Of a stretch of 64,000 nt of DNA, positions 1 to 7,824 are shown piece by piece. Source of the DNA: Massilia frigida (GTDB lineage Bacteria > Pseudomonadota > Gammaproteobacteria > Burkholderiales > Burkholderiaceae_D); the NCBI RefSeq assembly GCF_011682175.1, contig NZ_WHJG01000005.1, positions 186,001-250,000 of the forward strand, written 5' to 3'. The notes beneath the pieces are model-generated. The model saw only the letters and a list, made by a program, of their open reading frames with translations, had not been told where the DNA came from and did not search any database. A program made the translations under genes and the position numbers. Position 1 is the first letter of the stretch; each line of letters starts with the position of its first letter.

Positions 1-43
1 TAAGACCAGGCCGCGCTGGCCAAGCCAGTGCCATCACCGTCAC

Positions 44-82
44 ACCGTCGTTCCGCGCCGCCCTGGCGCCGGAACGACGGCG
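44..82. repeat. REP-like palindrome, copy A
   Basis: An inverted repeat whose arms are ccgtcgttccg and cggaacgacgg, with a ctggcg centre, lies just before the M3 peptidase gene. The same arm words recur around 18.46, 25.1, 34.1 and 37.9 kb, always between genes. It argues that the peptidase starts downstream of this element rather than at an earlier in-frame ATG. Confidence 0.5.
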
Positions 83-120
83 CCGCACCATCCGTTCCCC
101 TCCTCGATTTGCACAACACC

Positions 121-2250
121 ATGAACCGTCCCCAACTGATGATCATCGCGGCCAGCCTGGCCGTGTCCAGCTCCGCCTTCACCGCGCCGGCCAGCGCCGC
201 GCTGGCTGCGTCCAACCCGTTCGCCAAAGCCAGCAGCTTGCCCTTCAACTATCCGGTCTTCGACAAGATCCGGATCGAGCATTTCGTCCCGGCCTTTGCC
301 GAAGGCATGCGCCGCGAGGCCGCCGAGGTCAATGCCATCGCCAATAACCGCAAGCCGGCCACGTTCGAGAACACCATCGTGGCGATGGAGCGTTCCGGCA
401 CGCTGCTCGACCGCGTCAGCGGGGCCTTCTCCATTTTAGGGGCCGGCAACAGCAACGACGCGATCAAGGCCCTTGAGCTCACCCTGGCGCCGAAGGCGGC
501 GGCGCACCGCGACGCCATCAGCCTGAACCAGAAACTGTTCGAGCGCATCGAAACGCTGTACGCCAAGCGCGACAAGCTCGGGCTCGACGCCGAAGCGGCG
601 TTCCTGCTGGAGCGCTATCACAAGGATTTCATCCGTGCCGGCGCCAGGCTGAACGCGGCCGACAAGCGCAAGCTCAAGGCCTACAACGCCGAACTGGCGA
701 CCTTGCAAGCCACCTTCAGCCAGAACGTGCAGGGCGAGGCCAAGGCTGCCGCGCTGGTGGTCGACAGCCGCGCGGAACTCGATGGCATGCCGGAAGCGGC
801 CATCGATGCGGCGGCCGCGAATGCCAGCCAGAACGGCCTGGAAGGCAAGTTCATGCTCGCGGTGACCAACACCACGGGCCAGGCCGCCATGGCGGTGCTG
901 ACCAACCGCGCCGTGCGCCAGCGCCTGCAGGAAGCGTCCATGGGGCGCGGCAGCCACGGCGGCAAGTTCGATAATACCGGCGTGGTGCTGCGCCTGGCCA
1001 CACTGCGCGCCGAGCGCGCCGCCCTGCTCGGCTATCCGAACCATGCCGCCTACGTGCTGGACGACCAGACCGCGAAAGATACCGGCAGCGTCAACAAGCT
1101 GCTGGCCGAGCTGGTCAAGCCGGCGGTGGCCAATGCGCGCAAGGAAGCGGCCGACATCCAGGCCATGATCGACGCCGGCAAGGGCGGCTTCCAGCTGGCC
1201 GCCCACGACTGGGCCTTCTACAGCGACAAGGTACGCGCGCAGCGCTTCAATTTCGACCAGAGCCAGCTGCGTCCGTATTTTGAACTGAACAATGTGCTCA
1301 CCAACGGCGTGTTCTATGCCGCCGGCCAGCTGTATGGCCTCACCTTCAAGGAGCGCAAGGACTTGCCGGTGTACGACCCCGACATGCGTGTGTTCGACGT
1401 GATCGATGCCGATGGCAAGCCGCTGGCGATCTTCGTGGCCGATCTGTACGCGCGTGCGAACAAGCGCGGCGGCGCCTGGGCCAATGCCTACGTGCCGCAG
1501 TCGCACCTGATGGGCACGCGCCCGGTCATCGGCAACCACCTGAACATCCCCAAACCGGCCGCGGGCGAACCGACCCTGCTGACTTACGACGAACTGCGCA
1601 CCCTGTTCCACGAATTCGGCCACGCGCTGCACAGCATGTTTTCGGACGTGAGCTATCCGCGCTTTGCCGGCACCGCCGTGCCGCGCGACTACGTTGAATT
1701 CCCGTCGCAGGTCAACGAAATGTGGTCGCTCTGGCCCGAAGTGCTCGGCAACTACGCCAAGCACTACAAGACCGGCGAGCCGATGCCCAAGGAATTGCTC
1801 GACAAGGTGATCGGGTCGAAGCAGTTCAACGAAGGCTACCGCACCACCGAGAACCTGGCCTCGTCCATTCTCGACCAGCGCTGGCACCAGCTGGACGCGG
1901 CCCACATCCCGACCGACGTGCTGGCCTTTGAAGCGGCCGCGATGAAGGACGCCGGCGTCGACTTCGCGCCGGTGCCCCCACGCTACCGCTCCACCTACTT
2001 CTCGCACGTGTTCTCGGGCGGTTATTCGGCCGGGTATTACGGTTACCTGTGGAGTGAAAAGCTGGACGCCGATACCGTCGAATGGTTCAAGGAAAACGGC
2101 GGCTTGTCGCGCAAGAATGGCGATCACTTCCGCAAGACGCTGCTGTCGAAAGGCGGCACGCTCGATGCCATGCAGATGTACCGCAACTTCCGCGGCCGCG
2201 ATGCGACCATCGAACCGCTGCTGGAACGGCGCGGACTGAACGCCAGGTAA
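121..2250 (+). CDS. M3 family metallopeptidase, exported (peptidyl-dipeptidase / oligopeptidase A-like)
   Basis: A 709-residue zinc oligopeptidase. The catalytic motif HEFGH is at residues about 497-501, and a downstream VEFPSQ segment (Glu near 526) supplies the third zinc ligand, as in the thimet oligopeptidase/Dcp family. Full length fits the family. The first ~30 residues form a signal peptide (Met-Asn-Arg-Pro, hydrophobic core, Ala-rich cleavage region), so the enzyme probably acts in the periplasm on short peptides. I chose the ATG at 121 because earlier in-frame codons run through a palindromic repeat and encode an Arg/Pro-rich stretch unlike a leader. A rho-independent terminator follows, so it appears monocistronic. 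Confidence 0.9.
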   Translation: MNRPQLMIIAASLAVSSSAFTAPASAALAASNPFAKASSLPFNYPVFDKIRIEHFVPAFAEGMRREAAEVNAIANNRKPATFENTIVAMERSGTLLDRVSGAFSILGAGNSNDAIKALELTLAPKAAAHRDAISLNQKLFERIETLYAKRDKLGLDAEAAFLLERYHKDFIRAGARLNAADKRKLKAYNAELATLQATFSQNVQGEAKAAALVVDSRAELDGMPEAAIDAAAANASQNGLEGKFMLAVTNTTGQAAMAVLTNRAVRQRLQEASMGRGSHGGKFDNTGVVLRLATLRAERAALLGYPNHAAYVLDDQTAKDTGSVNKLLAELVKPAVANARKEAADIQAMIDAGKGGFQLAAHDWAFYSDKVRAQRFNFDQSQLRPYFELNNVLTNGVFYAAGQLYGLTFKERKDLPVYDPDMRVFDVIDADGKPLAIFVADLYARANKRGGAWANAYVPQSHLMGTRPVIGNHLNIPKPAAGEPTLLTYDELRTLFHEFGHALHSMFSDVSYPRFAGTAVPRDYVEFPSQVNEMWSLWPEVLGNYAKHYKTGEPMPKELLDKVIGSKQFNEGYRTTENLASSILDQRWHQLDAAHIPTDVLAFEAAAMKDAGVDFAPVPPRYRSTYFSHVFSGGYSAGYYGYLWSEKLDADTVEWFKENGGLSRKNGDHFRKTLLSKGGTLDAMQMYRNFRGRDATIEPLLERRGLNAR

Positions 2251-3643: not shown

Positions 3644-4918
3644 ATGCTCACACCTCGCTTTCTCCCGCTCGCGTCCGTCCTGCTGTGCGCCCTTGGCTTG
3701 GCGGCCTGTACCACCACACCGGTGCGCCCACCCGACGTACAACTGACCGAAGAGCCGGGCGAGGGCGGCCCGCGCTGTAGCGGCGCCGATTGCTGTAGCG
3801 ATGCCGACGCGCTCGAATTCGGGCCGCAGCGCCTGTATTGCAATGCGCTGGCGCTGGATAACGAAGGCAAGGCCCCCGCCTCGACGGCGGCCCTGCAGCA
3901 AGCCATCGCCGGTGCCCGCGCCGAGAAAACCCGCACGCACGATGCTTCCGCAGTGCTGTGCCACGCGTACGGGCTCGACGCCCAGCGCGCCAGCGACAGC
4001 GGCGACCCGGTGGCTGGCCGCACCGGCTATGCCGCCGCCGTGCAAGCCTGCCGGGCCGGGTACGGCAAGGAATCGAACCAGGCCGCCCAGGCCATGCTCG
4101 ACAGCGCCGAGCAGCGCATGCAGATGAAGGAATTCGGCAGCGTCCAGGCCGAGATGGCCGAGGTGCAGGCGCAGGCACGCAAGAACGCCAACCCCCAGCT
4201 CGAAGCCGATGCGGCCGACGCGCTCGGACGCATGCTGGGCCTGAGGGGCGACGTGGCCGGCGAGCGCCGCCTGTTGACCGAAGCGCTGGCGTTGCGCCGC
4301 AAGGTCCATGGCGAGGACAGCTACCAGGTCGGCATGAGTTACGTAAACCTTGGCGGCAGCTATATGCGCGAGAACGACAACCGGACCGGGCGCGAATGGT
4401 ACGAGCGCGCCATCGCGGTGTACGGCGCCACGCTCGGCATGGCCGACCCGGTGACGCTGGAAGTGCGCGCCGCGCACGCGATGAGCTACAGCGCGGAGCG
4501 CGGCCACAAGCGCGCCCAGGAACTGTTCGAGGCAATGCTGCCGCAGGCCGTGCAAACCTTCGGTGCGCAATCCGAGGAAACGGTCGCCGTCATCAACGAT
4601 ATCGGCAGCATGCACGAGCATCAGGACCAGAACCCGGCGGCCTTGCTGCGCTACGAGGAAATCCTGGCGATCCGGCGCGTCACCATGCCCAATTCGGTCA
4701 AGCACGGGCGCTCGGCCATGCTGGCCGCCACCATCAAGCGCCGGGTTGCCGGGTGCGGCGGCGCCAGCGCGCTGGATGCGGAAGTGAGGGCCATCGCCGC
4801 GCACTTGCGCACGTCCATGCCCAAGGATGCGGATGCGCGCGATTTCGTGGTCGAGGCCTCGGTCTTCGACGACAAGTGCGCGCGTCCGGCGCCGCGCGCT
4901 GCGCGCAAGAAGAGGTAA
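3644..4918 (+). CDS. TPR-repeat lipoprotein
   Basis: A 424-residue protein with a lipoprotein signal: a hydrophobic stretch ending in LAAC, with the lipidated Cys at residue 22. The rest is helical, with degenerate tetratricopeptide-like repeats between about residues 60 and 380. Typical 'ALxLRRKVHGEDS..VGMSYVNLG' and 'RYEEILAIRR' segments are those of the TPR_10/12 (kinesin light chain-like) type. It probably works as a protein-interaction scaffold anchored in the outer membrane or periplasm. The partner is unknown. The next gene starts 10 bases after its stop, so co-transcription with the oxygenase is likely. Confidence 0.8.
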   Translation: MLTPRFLPLASVLLCALGLAACTTTPVRPPDVQLTEEPGEGGPRCSGADCCSDADALEFGPQRLYCNALALDNEGKAPASTAALQQAIAGARAEKTRTHDASAVLCHAYGLDAQRASDSGDPVAGRTGYAAAVQACRAGYGKESNQAAQAMLDSAEQRMQMKEFGSVQAEMAEVQAQARKNANPQLEADAADALGRMLGLRGDVAGERRLLTEALALRRKVHGEDSYQVGMSYVNLGGSYMRENDNRTGREWYERAIAVYGATLGMADPVTLEVRAAHAMSYSAERGHKRAQELFEAMLPQAVQTFGAQSEETVAVINDIGSMHEHQDQNPAALLRYEEILAIRRVTMPNSVKHGRSAMLAATIKRRVAGCGGASALDAEVRAIAAHLRTSMPKDADARDFVVEASVFDDKCARPAPRAARKKR

Positions 4919-4928
4919 ACCGAGCCCC

Positions 4929-5507
4929 ATGCAGGTCGTCACCCATGCGCCGGCGGTGTGGTCCATCGATGGTTTTCTCGATGTGCGCGAGTGCGGCGAG
5001 CTGATCGCGCTGGCCGAGGCGCGCGGTTTCGCGGCGGCCGCGGTCCGCACGGCGCAAGGCGCCAGGCCGATGCCGACGATCCGCAACAACGAGCGCGCCC
5101 AGTTCGACGCGCCCGACTGGATCGCCCTGCTGTGGCAGCGCCTGGCGGCGGCCGGCCTGCCCGGACTCGACGGCCAGGCGGCGCTCGGGCTGCCGCGCGA
5201 GCTGCGCTTCTACAAGTATGCGGCGGGCCAGCGCTTCAAGATGCACAAGGATGGCCCGTGGAGCGAAGATGGACTGAGCAGCAAGCTGACCTTCCTCGTG
5301 TACCTGAACCAGGGCTACGAGGGCGGCGACACGGTCTTCAAGGAGTTTCGCGTCACGCCGAGGACCGGGTCGGCCCTGCTGTTCGTGCACGACACCTGGC
5401 ACGAGGGCGCCGCGCTGGCCGGCGGCGTCAAGTATGTGCTGCGCTCGGACGTCATGTACCGCCCGGCCAACCCGCCACAGGATAAGGAACATGCTGGAAA
5501 CACCTGA
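4929..5507 (+). CDS. 2OG-Fe(II) oxygenase (prolyl 4-hydroxylase-like)
   Basis: A 192-residue non-haem iron dioxygenase. The iron triad is visible: His106-x-Asp108 in 'KMHKDG', and the distal His158 in 'TWHEG'. Lys168 or Arg172 is the likely 2-oxoglutarate anchor. The surrounding 'FYKYAAGQRFKMHKDG' and 'YLNQGYEGGDT' are typical of the P4Hc superfamily. The substrate cannot be told from sequence. The ATG at 4929 follows the upstream lipoprotein gene by 10 bases, and the 3' end overlaps the next gene by 17 bases, which points to translational coupling. No signal peptide, so cytoplasmic. Confidence 0.85.
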   Translation: MQVVTHAPAVWSIDGFLDVRECGELIALAEARGFAAAAVRTAQGARPMPTIRNNERAQFDAPDWIALLWQRLAAAGLPGLDGQAALGLPRELRFYKYAAGQRFKMHKDGPWSEDGLSSKLTFLVYLNQGYEGGDTVFKEFRVTPRTGSALLFVHDTWHEGAALAGGVKYVLRSDVMYRPANPPQDKEHAGNT

Positions 5508-5994
5508 ATTTGCAGAACAATACACGCGCGCCGAGCGGCTGCGCCTCGCGCTGATCATCCTGCCCCCGGCGCTCGCGCTGCTGCTGGCGGCCCAGTTGTG
5601 GTTTTATCCCTGGCTGGCGGCGTTCTCCGCGACGGCCAGGTGCCGCGACATCGGCGGCGTCAATGGCATCGTGGTGCTGAACTACGGCCTCTTCGTGGGC
5701 TTGCCGCTGCTGTTTGCGGTGCTGGCGGGCCTGGTGTTGGGCGTGCCCGGTTACCGTAGCCTGCGCAGCGGACAGTTTCCCGCCCCCGGCATCAAGGTGT
5801 TTTCGCCCAGGCGCATCGTGCGTGGCTGGCGCGCCACCCTGTACGGCGCGGCGCACCTGCTGCCGGCGGGGTGCTTGCTGGGCGTGATGATATGGGGCTG
5901 TTTTGCAGCGGGCGAGATGGTGGCCAAGGCGCAGGCCAGCCCCGTCGAGTGCGCTGTCCGCCTTCCTGAAACACCTCACCTGGAAGCACCATGA
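5491..5994 (+). CDS. Small integral membrane protein of unknown function
   Basis: A 167-residue protein with three hydrophobic segments, about residues 18-40, 55-80 and 120-145. I do not recognise a family. The ATG at 5491 has AAGGA close upstream and lies inside the end of the oxygenase gene. Its own stop overlaps the ATG of the next gene in an ATGA arrangement. A decayed copy of its last third lies before the second paralogue downstream (see 6656-6802), so this gene and its partner were once duplicated as a unit. Confidence 0.7.
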   Translation: MLETPEFAEQYTRAERLRLALIILPPALALLLAAQLWFYPWLAAFSATARCRDIGGVNGIVVLNYGLFVGLPLLFAVLAGLVLGVPGYRSLRSGQFPAPGIKVFSPRRIVRGWRATLYGAAHLLPAGCLLGVMIWGCFAAGEMVAKAQASPVECAVRLPETPHLEAP

Positions 5995-6629
5995 AAAAAC
6001 CGATCGCGCACGCCGCGTGCTTGCTGGCCATGTCCGCAAGCGCGTTCGCCTGCGGCCGCGACGGCAGCACCCCGGTGCCGCTTGCGCAGCTGGCGGTGCA
6101 GAAGGCGACGTTCAGCTTGTCCGAGGATGGGCGTACCGCCACCACGCTCGGTACGCTGAAGAATGCGTCCGCCGACCGGGTCAGGGAAGTGATGTTCGAG
6201 GTGAAATACTTCGACGCCAAGCATGCGCTGGTCGATACCTTCACGCGCTGTGTCGACAACGTGATTGCGCCAGCAGCCGGCGAGGTGGCGTTCCGCATGC
6301 GCGAGCGGCTTTCCCAGCCGGCGGCGTCGTACGTGTCGCAGGAAGTGCGCGTGGTCTCCGCCGAGGCGATCAGTCCGCCTCCGGAAAAATCCGCGCTCAG
6401 CCCATTCATGCGGGAATTCCTGCTTGTCTGGCTACCCTTGCTGGCATTGCTGGGCTTCTTGATCTATTTCATGAAACGCCTGATCGGCAAGCAGTCGGCC
6501 ACCACCACCGCCCTGGCGCTGATGCAAACGCAGACGGCCCACCTCGGCACGCATGCGCGCATGCTTGAGCGGCTGGCGCTGGTCGCCGAAGCGCGGGTAC
6601 GCGGCGCTGCGCAGCCGGCTGACGACTGA
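5991..6629 (+). CDS. Exported single-span membrane protein with FxLYD-like domain (paralogue 1)
   Basis: A 212-residue protein. It has a signal peptide ending in 'SAFAC', then a beta-rich extracytoplasmic domain containing 'LKNASADRVREVMFEVKYFD', a hydrophobic stretch at about 144-162, and a basic, helical cytoplasmic tail. The domain resembles the FxLYD fold (a tract ending in a transition 'LKN.S...V..V...V.Y.D' and a later 'GEVAF'); this assignment is by eye. The Cys right after the signal peptide could be lipidated, but the lipobox is poor. The gene overlaps the upstream membrane gene by four bases. About half of its residues match the next gene, 6799-7446. Confidence 0.7.
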   Translation: MKKPIAHAACLLAMSASAFACGRDGSTPVPLAQLAVQKATFSLSEDGRTATTLGTLKNASADRVREVMFEVKYFDAKHALVDTFTRCVDNVIAPAAGEVAFRMRERLSQPAASYVSQEVRVVSAEAISPPPEKSALSPFMREFLLVWLPLLALLGFLIYFMKRLIGKQSATTTALALMQTQTAHLGTHARMLERLALVAEARVRGAAQPADD

Positions 6630-6655
6630 GCCATTCTGAAGCCTGGGAGCAATGC

Positions 6656-6802
6656 GGCACGGTTCATCCGCTGCTGGCGGCGTTTCCGGGTAGCGTAAGA
6701 TGCGCCTGTTTTACAACGAGCGCGATGGTGGCCAGGGCGCAGGCCAGAACCGTCAACTGCGCCGCTCGTCCCCTTGATACACTTCACCTGAAAGTACCAT
6801 GA
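6656..6802 (+). pseudogene. Relic of a second copy of the upstream membrane-protein gene
   Basis: Read in the frame that ends with TGA at 6800-6802, this stretch encodes about 48 residues that align with the C-terminus of the 5491-5994 protein. Examples are 'MVARAQARTVNC' against 'MVAKAQASPVEC', and 'DTLHLKVP' against 'ETPHLEAP'. The nucleotide match is strong across the last ~95 bases, including the ATGA junction with the next gene. The 5' two thirds of the gene are gone and I find no start codon. It is direct evidence that a two-gene unit was duplicated here and then lost most of one gene. Confidence 0.75.
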
Positions 6803-7446
6803 AAATATTTATCGCACGGTTGGCCTGCATATTGGCCTTCCCGGCGTCGGCGTTTGCTTGCGGCTACGACGACGCTTCCCCGGCCGTGGTCAACAAGCTG
6901 GCGGTCAGCAATACCTCGTTCGAGGTGTCGGATGGACCGCGCATGGTCACGTCCCTGGCAACGCTGAAGAATGGGTCGGCCGACGGCGTCCGGGACATCA
7001 TGCTGGAAGTGAAATACTTTGACGCCAACCACGTCCTCGTCGATACCGTGACCCAGTCTGTCGATGAGCTTGTCGTGCCAGCGTCCGGGGAGGTCGCGTT
7101 CCGCATCCGCGATCTTGCTGCGCGCGAGAAAGAGGCATATGCATCGCAGGAAATTCGCATCATCTCGGCCGAGGCGATCAAGCCGCACCGCAAGCAGTCG
7201 CCATCGGTGACGTCCCAAATTCTTGATTTTCTGTACAGCTGGGGGCCGATGCTGCTGTTAATTGGCGTGTACATTTACTTTATCAAGCGCGCGAACGGCA
7301 AAAATTCGCCGCAGAACAGAATGATGGTGCTGCTGGAGTCGCAGAGCGCCCACCTCAACGCACAGTTGCGTTTGCTTGAACGGCTGGCCGTTGCCGCCGA
7401 AGCGCAAGCAAGCCGCTCCGGCCCGCGCCCGGTTGAGCCATCCTGA
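6799..7446 (+). CDS. Exported single-span membrane protein with FxLYD-like domain (paralogue 2)
   Basis: A 215-residue protein with the same plan as its neighbour at 5991-6629: signal peptide ending in 'SAFAC', an extracytoplasmic domain with 'LKNGSADGVRDIMLEVKYFD' and 'GEVAFRIR', a transmembrane segment at about 147-166, and a short cytoplasmic tail with 'LLERLAVAAEA'. The shared tail ('LERLAL/VVAEA') suggests the cytoplasmic end matters too. The start overlaps the stop of the relic of the duplicated upstream gene. Function unknown. Confidence 0.7.
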   Translation: MKIFIARLACILAFPASAFACGYDDASPAVVNKLAVSNTSFEVSDGPRMVTSLATLKNGSADGVRDIMLEVKYFDANHVLVDTVTQSVDELVVPASGEVAFRIRDLAAREKEAYASQEIRIISAEAIKPHRKQSPSVTSQILDFLYSWGPMLLLIGVYIYFIKRANGKNSPQNRMMVLLESQSAHLNAQLRLLERLAVAAEAQASRSGPRPVEPS

Positions 7447-7458
7447 CGAGTAAACATC

Positions 7459-7734
7459 ATGCAACCGCGTACTGTGCTGTTCGTCGGCTTGGCGGGCGTC
7501 CATGCAACGATCGCCTGGATCTGGGCCGGTACCAGCACCTTGGGGCCGGCCATCGCCGCCACCATCTACGGCCCCTTGTTCGTGCTCGATGCGCTCAGGC
7601 TGCCGGTGTTCGGTAACGGCGCATCCGGCGGCTGGGCCGCGCCATCCGTGCCGGGATGGGTCTGCGTGGTGCTGTTCTGGGCCGCCGTCTGGTGGGGTGT
7701 GGCAGCTTTGCTGGCGCGCCTGTGTCGTCGCTGA
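7459..7734 (+). CDS. Small membrane protein of unknown function
   Basis: A 91-residue hydrophobic protein with two or three predicted spans, about residues 5-25, 28-48 and 65-88, and a basic C-terminus (Arg-Leu-Cys-Arg-Arg). It begins 12 bases after the preceding gene, so it is probably the last gene of the envelope cluster that starts near 3.6 kb. I recognise no family. Codon use fits the neighbours. Confidence 0.6.
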   Translation: MQPRTVLFVGLAGVHATIAWIWAGTSTLGPAIAATIYGPLFVLDALRLPVFGNGASGGWAAPSVPGWVCVVLFWAAVWWGVAALLARLCRR

Positions 7735-7824
7735 TCGCTGCGCATCCATGGTTGACCCAGCCATTCTCTCGATTTGATTAATGTTAAGATAATGCAATCC
7801 AAACATCATTGCGACAAAGGTATC

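Follow-up and report, generated by a model that had tools for sequence, protein, structure and literature searches.

The genes under study (Table 1) lie in a window of 64,000 nucleotides of Massilia frigida DNA. OXY and MEM overlap by 17 bp. Both EXP genes start on an ATGA, as the initial annotation had it: the EXP1 start overlaps the stop codon of MEM by four bases (5991-5994), and the EXP2 start overlaps in the same manner the stop codon of a MEM fragment, hereafter the relic (6799-6802). Both overlaps have been read directly. Twenty-five bases separate the EXP1 stop codon from the relic. MEM has no match in Pfam and NCBIfam scans. Four terminator-like sites are found in the 4900-7800 interval, where 2.8 are expected; sigma-70-like sites number 0 in the same interval (0.4 expected), and a separate promoter for EXP2 has been discarded on this count. 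A peptidase-like gene with a HEFGH motif, to which we assign the label M3, is located at the start of the window (28-2250). A second adjacent copy of this gene is found in five of six related loci (L063, L064, L065, L066, L068), and in the sixth the contig ends there. Judged from these adjacent copies, tandem duplication seems to occur readily at this locus.

Table 1. Features of the locus, in window coordinates
Feature	Position	Strand	Description
OXY	4929..5507	+	2OG-Fe(II) oxygenase-like, 5' neighbour of MEM; PF13640, E 6e-10
MEM	5491..5994	+	small hydrophobic protein with three spans, counted by eye; the full-length copy
Copy 1 of the putative duplicated segment	5844..6656	+	last third of MEM, EXP1 and spacer to the presumed former SM91 start; ends approximate
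EXP1	5991..6629	+	predicted signal peptide, beta-sandwich, single span and C-terminal helix; conservative copy
Post-EXP1 stretch	6630..6656	+	like the G009 EXP2-SM91 spacer, SM91 start codon included
MEM fragment (relic)	6655..6802	+	open frame; lacks the first two thirds of MEM
EXP2	6799..7446	+	diverged paralogue
SM91	7459..7734	+	small hydrophobic protein 3' of EXP; start is the putative 3' end of the duplicated segment

EXP proteins are 212-215 residues long. In the model of EXP1, obtained from a two-sequence alignment (mean pLDDT 71, pTM 0.47), a beta-sandwich (34-127) is followed by a span helix (138-165) and by an additional helix (170-203). EXP is most likely a bitopic inner-membrane protein, the predicted sandwich being periplasmic and the helix cytoplasmic. 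The EXPs had been labelled FxLYD-like. The two proteins of the window and those of three relatives match overlapping parts of the FxLYD model NF038353. However, in a scan covering five of the eight EXP proteins, no score reaches the 23 bits of the curated cut-off (15.0 for EXP1, 12.7 for EXP2; 18.9, 22.4, the best, and 17.6 for three of the six relatives' EXPs). A literature search on FxLYD retrieved nothing related, judging by title. Searched with Foldseek, the EXP1 model best matches the DUF1425 structure 3o0l (E 2.7e-4, target TM 0.56), but identity of EXP1 to 3o0l and other Ig-like sandwiches is 14-17%. According to VIA-align, 3o0l has a Z of 6.8, and the best matches to the model are glycosidase sandwich domains (Z 9.0 or less). 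PDB matches are many, and at or little above the generic level of the tool, too generic for a function of EXP to be drawn from them.

A profile of EXP retrieves from PDB sequences only two matches at E<=1, both to FtsH (4.4e-5). Positions 135-169 of the profile match FtsH 93-127, a region that presumably corresponds to the second membrane span; the resembling span sequence in EXP2 is SW-PMLLLIGV. The likeness involves about 35 residues, one span and its edges. In contrast to FtsH, EXP has neither an ATPase (AAA+) nor a zinc protease domain, and its identification as an FtsH protease has been rejected. Family-wide searches with EXP yielded matches outside the genus in 58 of 64 and in 166 of 172 genomes with a match. 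Among the matches listed, these are mostly open frames of 600-700 codons, and have been read as FtsH rather than EXP, as they are restricted to the span or extend at most over residues 79-207, approximately. No relatives of EXP outside the genus were found in the plasmid (protein) and viral_contigs collections, nor in genome_contigs with EXP1 or with EXP2, the latter giving one 28-residue match confined to the span region; these scans examine only stretches matching short peptide patterns. A 77-codon frame from another genus (L093:650-883) features an FtsH-like span and a LERIAAVLEA tail like the C-terminal half of EXP2, and the encoded protein matches the EXP2 span and tail (45% over 71 residues). 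The likeness is thin evidence for a mechanism. It is highly speculative that EXP1 and EXP2 might be alternative membrane adaptors, docking FtsH or partners via span mimicry, with the periplasmic sandwich as sensor and the cytoplasmic helix as effector, and that duplication might have given rise to two differently tuned adaptors.

The locus is recognisable, by EXP or MEM, in seven genomes, all from one genus. EXP is present in six of the 17 genomes of the genus sampled, and MEM in five of the 60 near genomes searched, all five from this genus; both samples include the genome of the window (G000). Three upstream genes (the peptidase-like gene, a 425-codon gene and a TPR gene) are conserved in all six relatives. 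SM91 is found in five, G007 being the exception, and a large gene further downstream also in five, being absent from the G014 stretch fetched. The loci belong to two clades. Clade A includes the window, which has the order OXY-MEM-EXP1-relic-EXP2; G012, which has OXY-EXP1-short relic-EXP2 and no MEM; and G009, which has OXY-EXP2, and neither MEM nor EXP1. OXY is at the same place in all three, and is absent from the four clade B loci. Of these, G002 and G016 feature MEM-EXP, with SM91 directly 3' of EXP; in G007, MEM is followed by an SM91-like stretch, spotted by eye, and then by EXP; in G014 (L068), MEM is followed by about 6 kb of other genes, and EXP is missing. ORC-CDC6-like and PRTase-CE proteins and an N6 methylase are encoded where EXP is expected (L068:1700-7900), and judging from its gene content this stretch between MEM and SM91 looks like a conflict or defence island. 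Comparison of the same locus in relatives, which had been recommended as a check, thus revealed both one- and two-copy versions, two EXPs being found in only two of the six EXP-bearing genomes of the genus. G012 and G009 would have reached their present state by later loss; if so, EXP works without MEM.

MEM matches have been detected in nine of 392 genomes, five in this genus and four in three other genera. No EXP was found in the 10-11 kb fetched around each of the four extra-genus MEM relatives. One MEM relative lies beside an integron integrase (L087:2759-3301 and 4421-5473; TIGR02249, 496 bits, cut-off 265), amid three repeats of 57 bases (2777, 3313 and 3801), which we take to be attC sites. 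Because of the repeats and the adjoining integrase, this gene looks like an integron cassette. The initial annotation had described the duplicated DNA as a unit made of a membrane gene and an exported gene. Tandem duplication did occur, but G012 and G009 have no MEM and G014 has no EXP, so that a two-gene unit is not generally required, and MEM and EXP may be regarded only weakly as one.

The duplication is evident at the DNA level. Positions 5842-6641 and 6653-7448 are two adjacent direct copies, homologous beyond chance. The copies abut: DNA homology ends at 6641 in copy 1 and begins at 6653 in copy 2, and if the G009 spacer is added the two meet at 6655-6656, the G000 spacer alone being weak. 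EXP1 and EXP2 are indeed paralogues (protein alignment score 500, 48% identity), and are the only two matches found in their own genome at E<=0.001. Their signal peptides, reported as the same, are similar but not identical. The proposal that some 48 residues matching the C-terminus of MEM are encoded between the two genes has been substantiated by the suggested alignment. The local DNA score of relic and MEM is 69.8, and none of 500 shuffles exceeds 19.7; in the frame of the TGA at 6800-6802 the protein score is 82, 300 shuffles reaching at most 41, and in the other two frames it is 26 and 27, within their own shuffles. Over the gap-free relic tail, 79 of 103 bases are identical to MEM.

The 5' boundary of the relic is common to G000 and G012 (score 55.2, highest of 500 shuffles 8.3; the final 14 bases of EXP1 and the ATG of EXP2 are part of the stretch compared), and is therefore older than their split. 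The spacer that follows EXP1 resembles, from the stop codon to the ATGCG of SM91, the spacer found between EXP2 and SM91 in G009. With the stop codon excluded, the G012 and G009 spacers score 16 (1 in 20000 shuffles; best score elsewhere in the 16-kb G009 locus, 11); the G000 and G009 spacers score 12 (42 in 20000 shuffles), which is below the 13 reached by a chance match on the opposite strand of the G009 locus. Of 12 spacer pairs, these two alone are significant. EXP1 spacers of G000 and G012 match neither the EXP2 spacers of the same genomes (p 0.14-0.96) nor the clade B spacers, and G009 may have kept the old spacer best. Homology to the spacer ends at 6656 and homology to MEM starts at 6655, with a 2-base overlap. 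As the former extends to the SM91 start and the latter is found from 6655 onwards, the simplest view is that the duplication started inside MEM.

Tandem gene duplications may leave a flanking gene truncated at the breakpoint. The locus does not differ in kind from this class: the repeat is direct, each copy contains one complete gene, the flanking gene is complete in one copy and cut in the second, and the junction is still partly readable despite the 67% DNA identity of the EXPs. An ancestor common to at least G000 and G012 would have undergone tandem duplication of a segment of about 800-810 bp, which started inside MEM (about codon 118), contained EXP and the spacer, and ended at the SM91 start codon. 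The breakpoints would have left a whole MEM1, two whole EXPs, and a second MEM devoid from the start of its first two thirds. Taken as a whole, the account is rather probable. Only the tail of the second membrane gene remains, in keeping with the initial idea that this gene had decayed, but the boundary shared with G012 and the spacer homology suggest that it was most simply born truncated by the duplication breakpoint. Truncation would have arisen together with duplication, and the copied MEM tail probably never was a working gene.

It is appreciably less probable that the whole unit of MEM and EXP was duplicated, and that a deletion subsequently removed the 5' two thirds of the second MEM. 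Such a history preserves the MEM-tail homology and the ATGA overlap, and duplication plus one early deletion would give the same present picture. The G012 locus, moreover, does lose pieces of MEM, as MEM1 is gone and the relic is about 90 bp shorter than in G000. In G012 a weak MEM-tail match is found before EXP1 (21.5 vs a shuffle maximum of 18.5), and the oxygenase frame, as read, appears to run into this remnant; in G009 no MEM tail is detectable before EXP2 (score 13, shuffle maximum 17). However, the extra deletion would have had to end just where copy 1 ends, before G000 and G012 split, and no match to the first two thirds of MEM was found in the relic interval. Among the clade A loci, which represent three species only, none shows an intact second MEM or remnants of a whole one. 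Another reading of the relic draws on its conservation. In the 6655-6798 stretch, the relic tail is more similar to MEM (79/103) than third codon positions are between the EXPs (101/207, p 2.8e-6), although it is not clearly better conserved than the whole EXP coding sequence (412/617, p 0.052). The relic frame is open, an in-frame ATG at 6725 starts 25 codons ending on the EXP2 ATGA, and the part shared by G000 and G012 differs at 9 of 78 bases, somewhat less than the synonymous distance of the neighbours (0.17-0.29). The relic could have been kept as a working leader or a short coupled frame for EXP2, but this is quite unlikely, as EXP2 is kept both in G012, which lacks most of the relic, and in G009, which has no detectable one.

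The evidence on timing is contradictory. NG86 values of dS are 0.77-1.0 for EXP1-EXP2 and 0.51-0.69 for EXP1-clade B, which places the EXP1-EXP2 split before the divergence of clades A and B; EXP2-clade B values are 0.91-1.24, those of other genes at the locus 0.37-0.65, and those of a conserved downstream gene 0.23-0.26. The relic conflicts with an early split, being closer to the G000 MEM (identity 0.70) than to the four clade B MEMs (0.48-0.59), to which the G000 MEM is 0.54-0.68 identical; some of the slices compared include the EXP start and some do not. The duplication may predate the clade A/B split, clade B having lost EXP2, and gene conversion having later refreshed the MEM tail in clade A. 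This alternative has a substantial chance, though below even, of being correct, and concerns the date, so it can be combined with the breakpoint explanation. The dS values fit, and so does the high conservation of the relic tail relative to EXP third positions. Exchange between copies could explain the nearness of the relic to the G000 MEM. On the other hand, GC3 is lower in EXP2 (0.72-0.75) than in EXP1 (0.83-0.84), which could inflate EXP1-EXP2 dS, and SM91 follows EXP directly in G002 and G016, leaving no room for a trace of EXP2.

EXP1 and EXP2 are both under purifying selection, and are maintained where present. The 95% limits of omega (NG86), estimated in orthologous comparisons from 300 bootstrap samples, are 0.28-0.70 for EXP1 and 0.34-0.75 for EXP2 between G000 and G012, and 0.19-0.49 for EXP2 between G000 and G009. 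With upper limits of 0.49-0.75, omega is below one for both paralogues, and the notion that the second exported gene was kept stands. The suggestion that two versions of the protein had been selected for is weakened: G009 lacks EXP1, which implies that two versions are not generally required, and two EXPs coexist in a minority of the EXP-bearing genomes. An unrooted tree, made without outgroup, sets EXP1s, EXP2s and clade B EXPs apart from one another, with support of 100 for EXP2 and clade B in both protein and DNA trees, and of 69 (protein) and 92 (DNA) for EXP1. Substitution rates of the paralogues seem to differ. In a relative-rate test that takes clade B to be the outgroup, residues unique to one paralogue are more numerous in EXP2 than in EXP1 (44-49 vs 14-18) in 6/6 comparisons, which share sequences and are not independent (p 1e-3 to 1e-5). 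Third codon positions also lean to EXP2 (53 vs 29, p 0.011; 48 vs 32, p 0.093), and the excess hence does not clearly stem from selection on the protein; the EXP2 branch is possibly faster in general, or older. The Cys of the TRCVDN motif is kept in EXP1 and clade B EXPs, and missing from EXP2. EXP2 looks like the changed, faster copy, and EXP1 seems to keep the clade B form.

The duplication is real and of an ordinary bacterial kind, and it is its history that is revised. The locus says little about function; it corrects an easy misreading, truncation at birth being taken for decay. In a still readable way, it exemplifies how the breakpoint of a duplication may leave a gene fragment mimicking a decayed gene, and shows neighbouring genes missing in different combinations among sister species.
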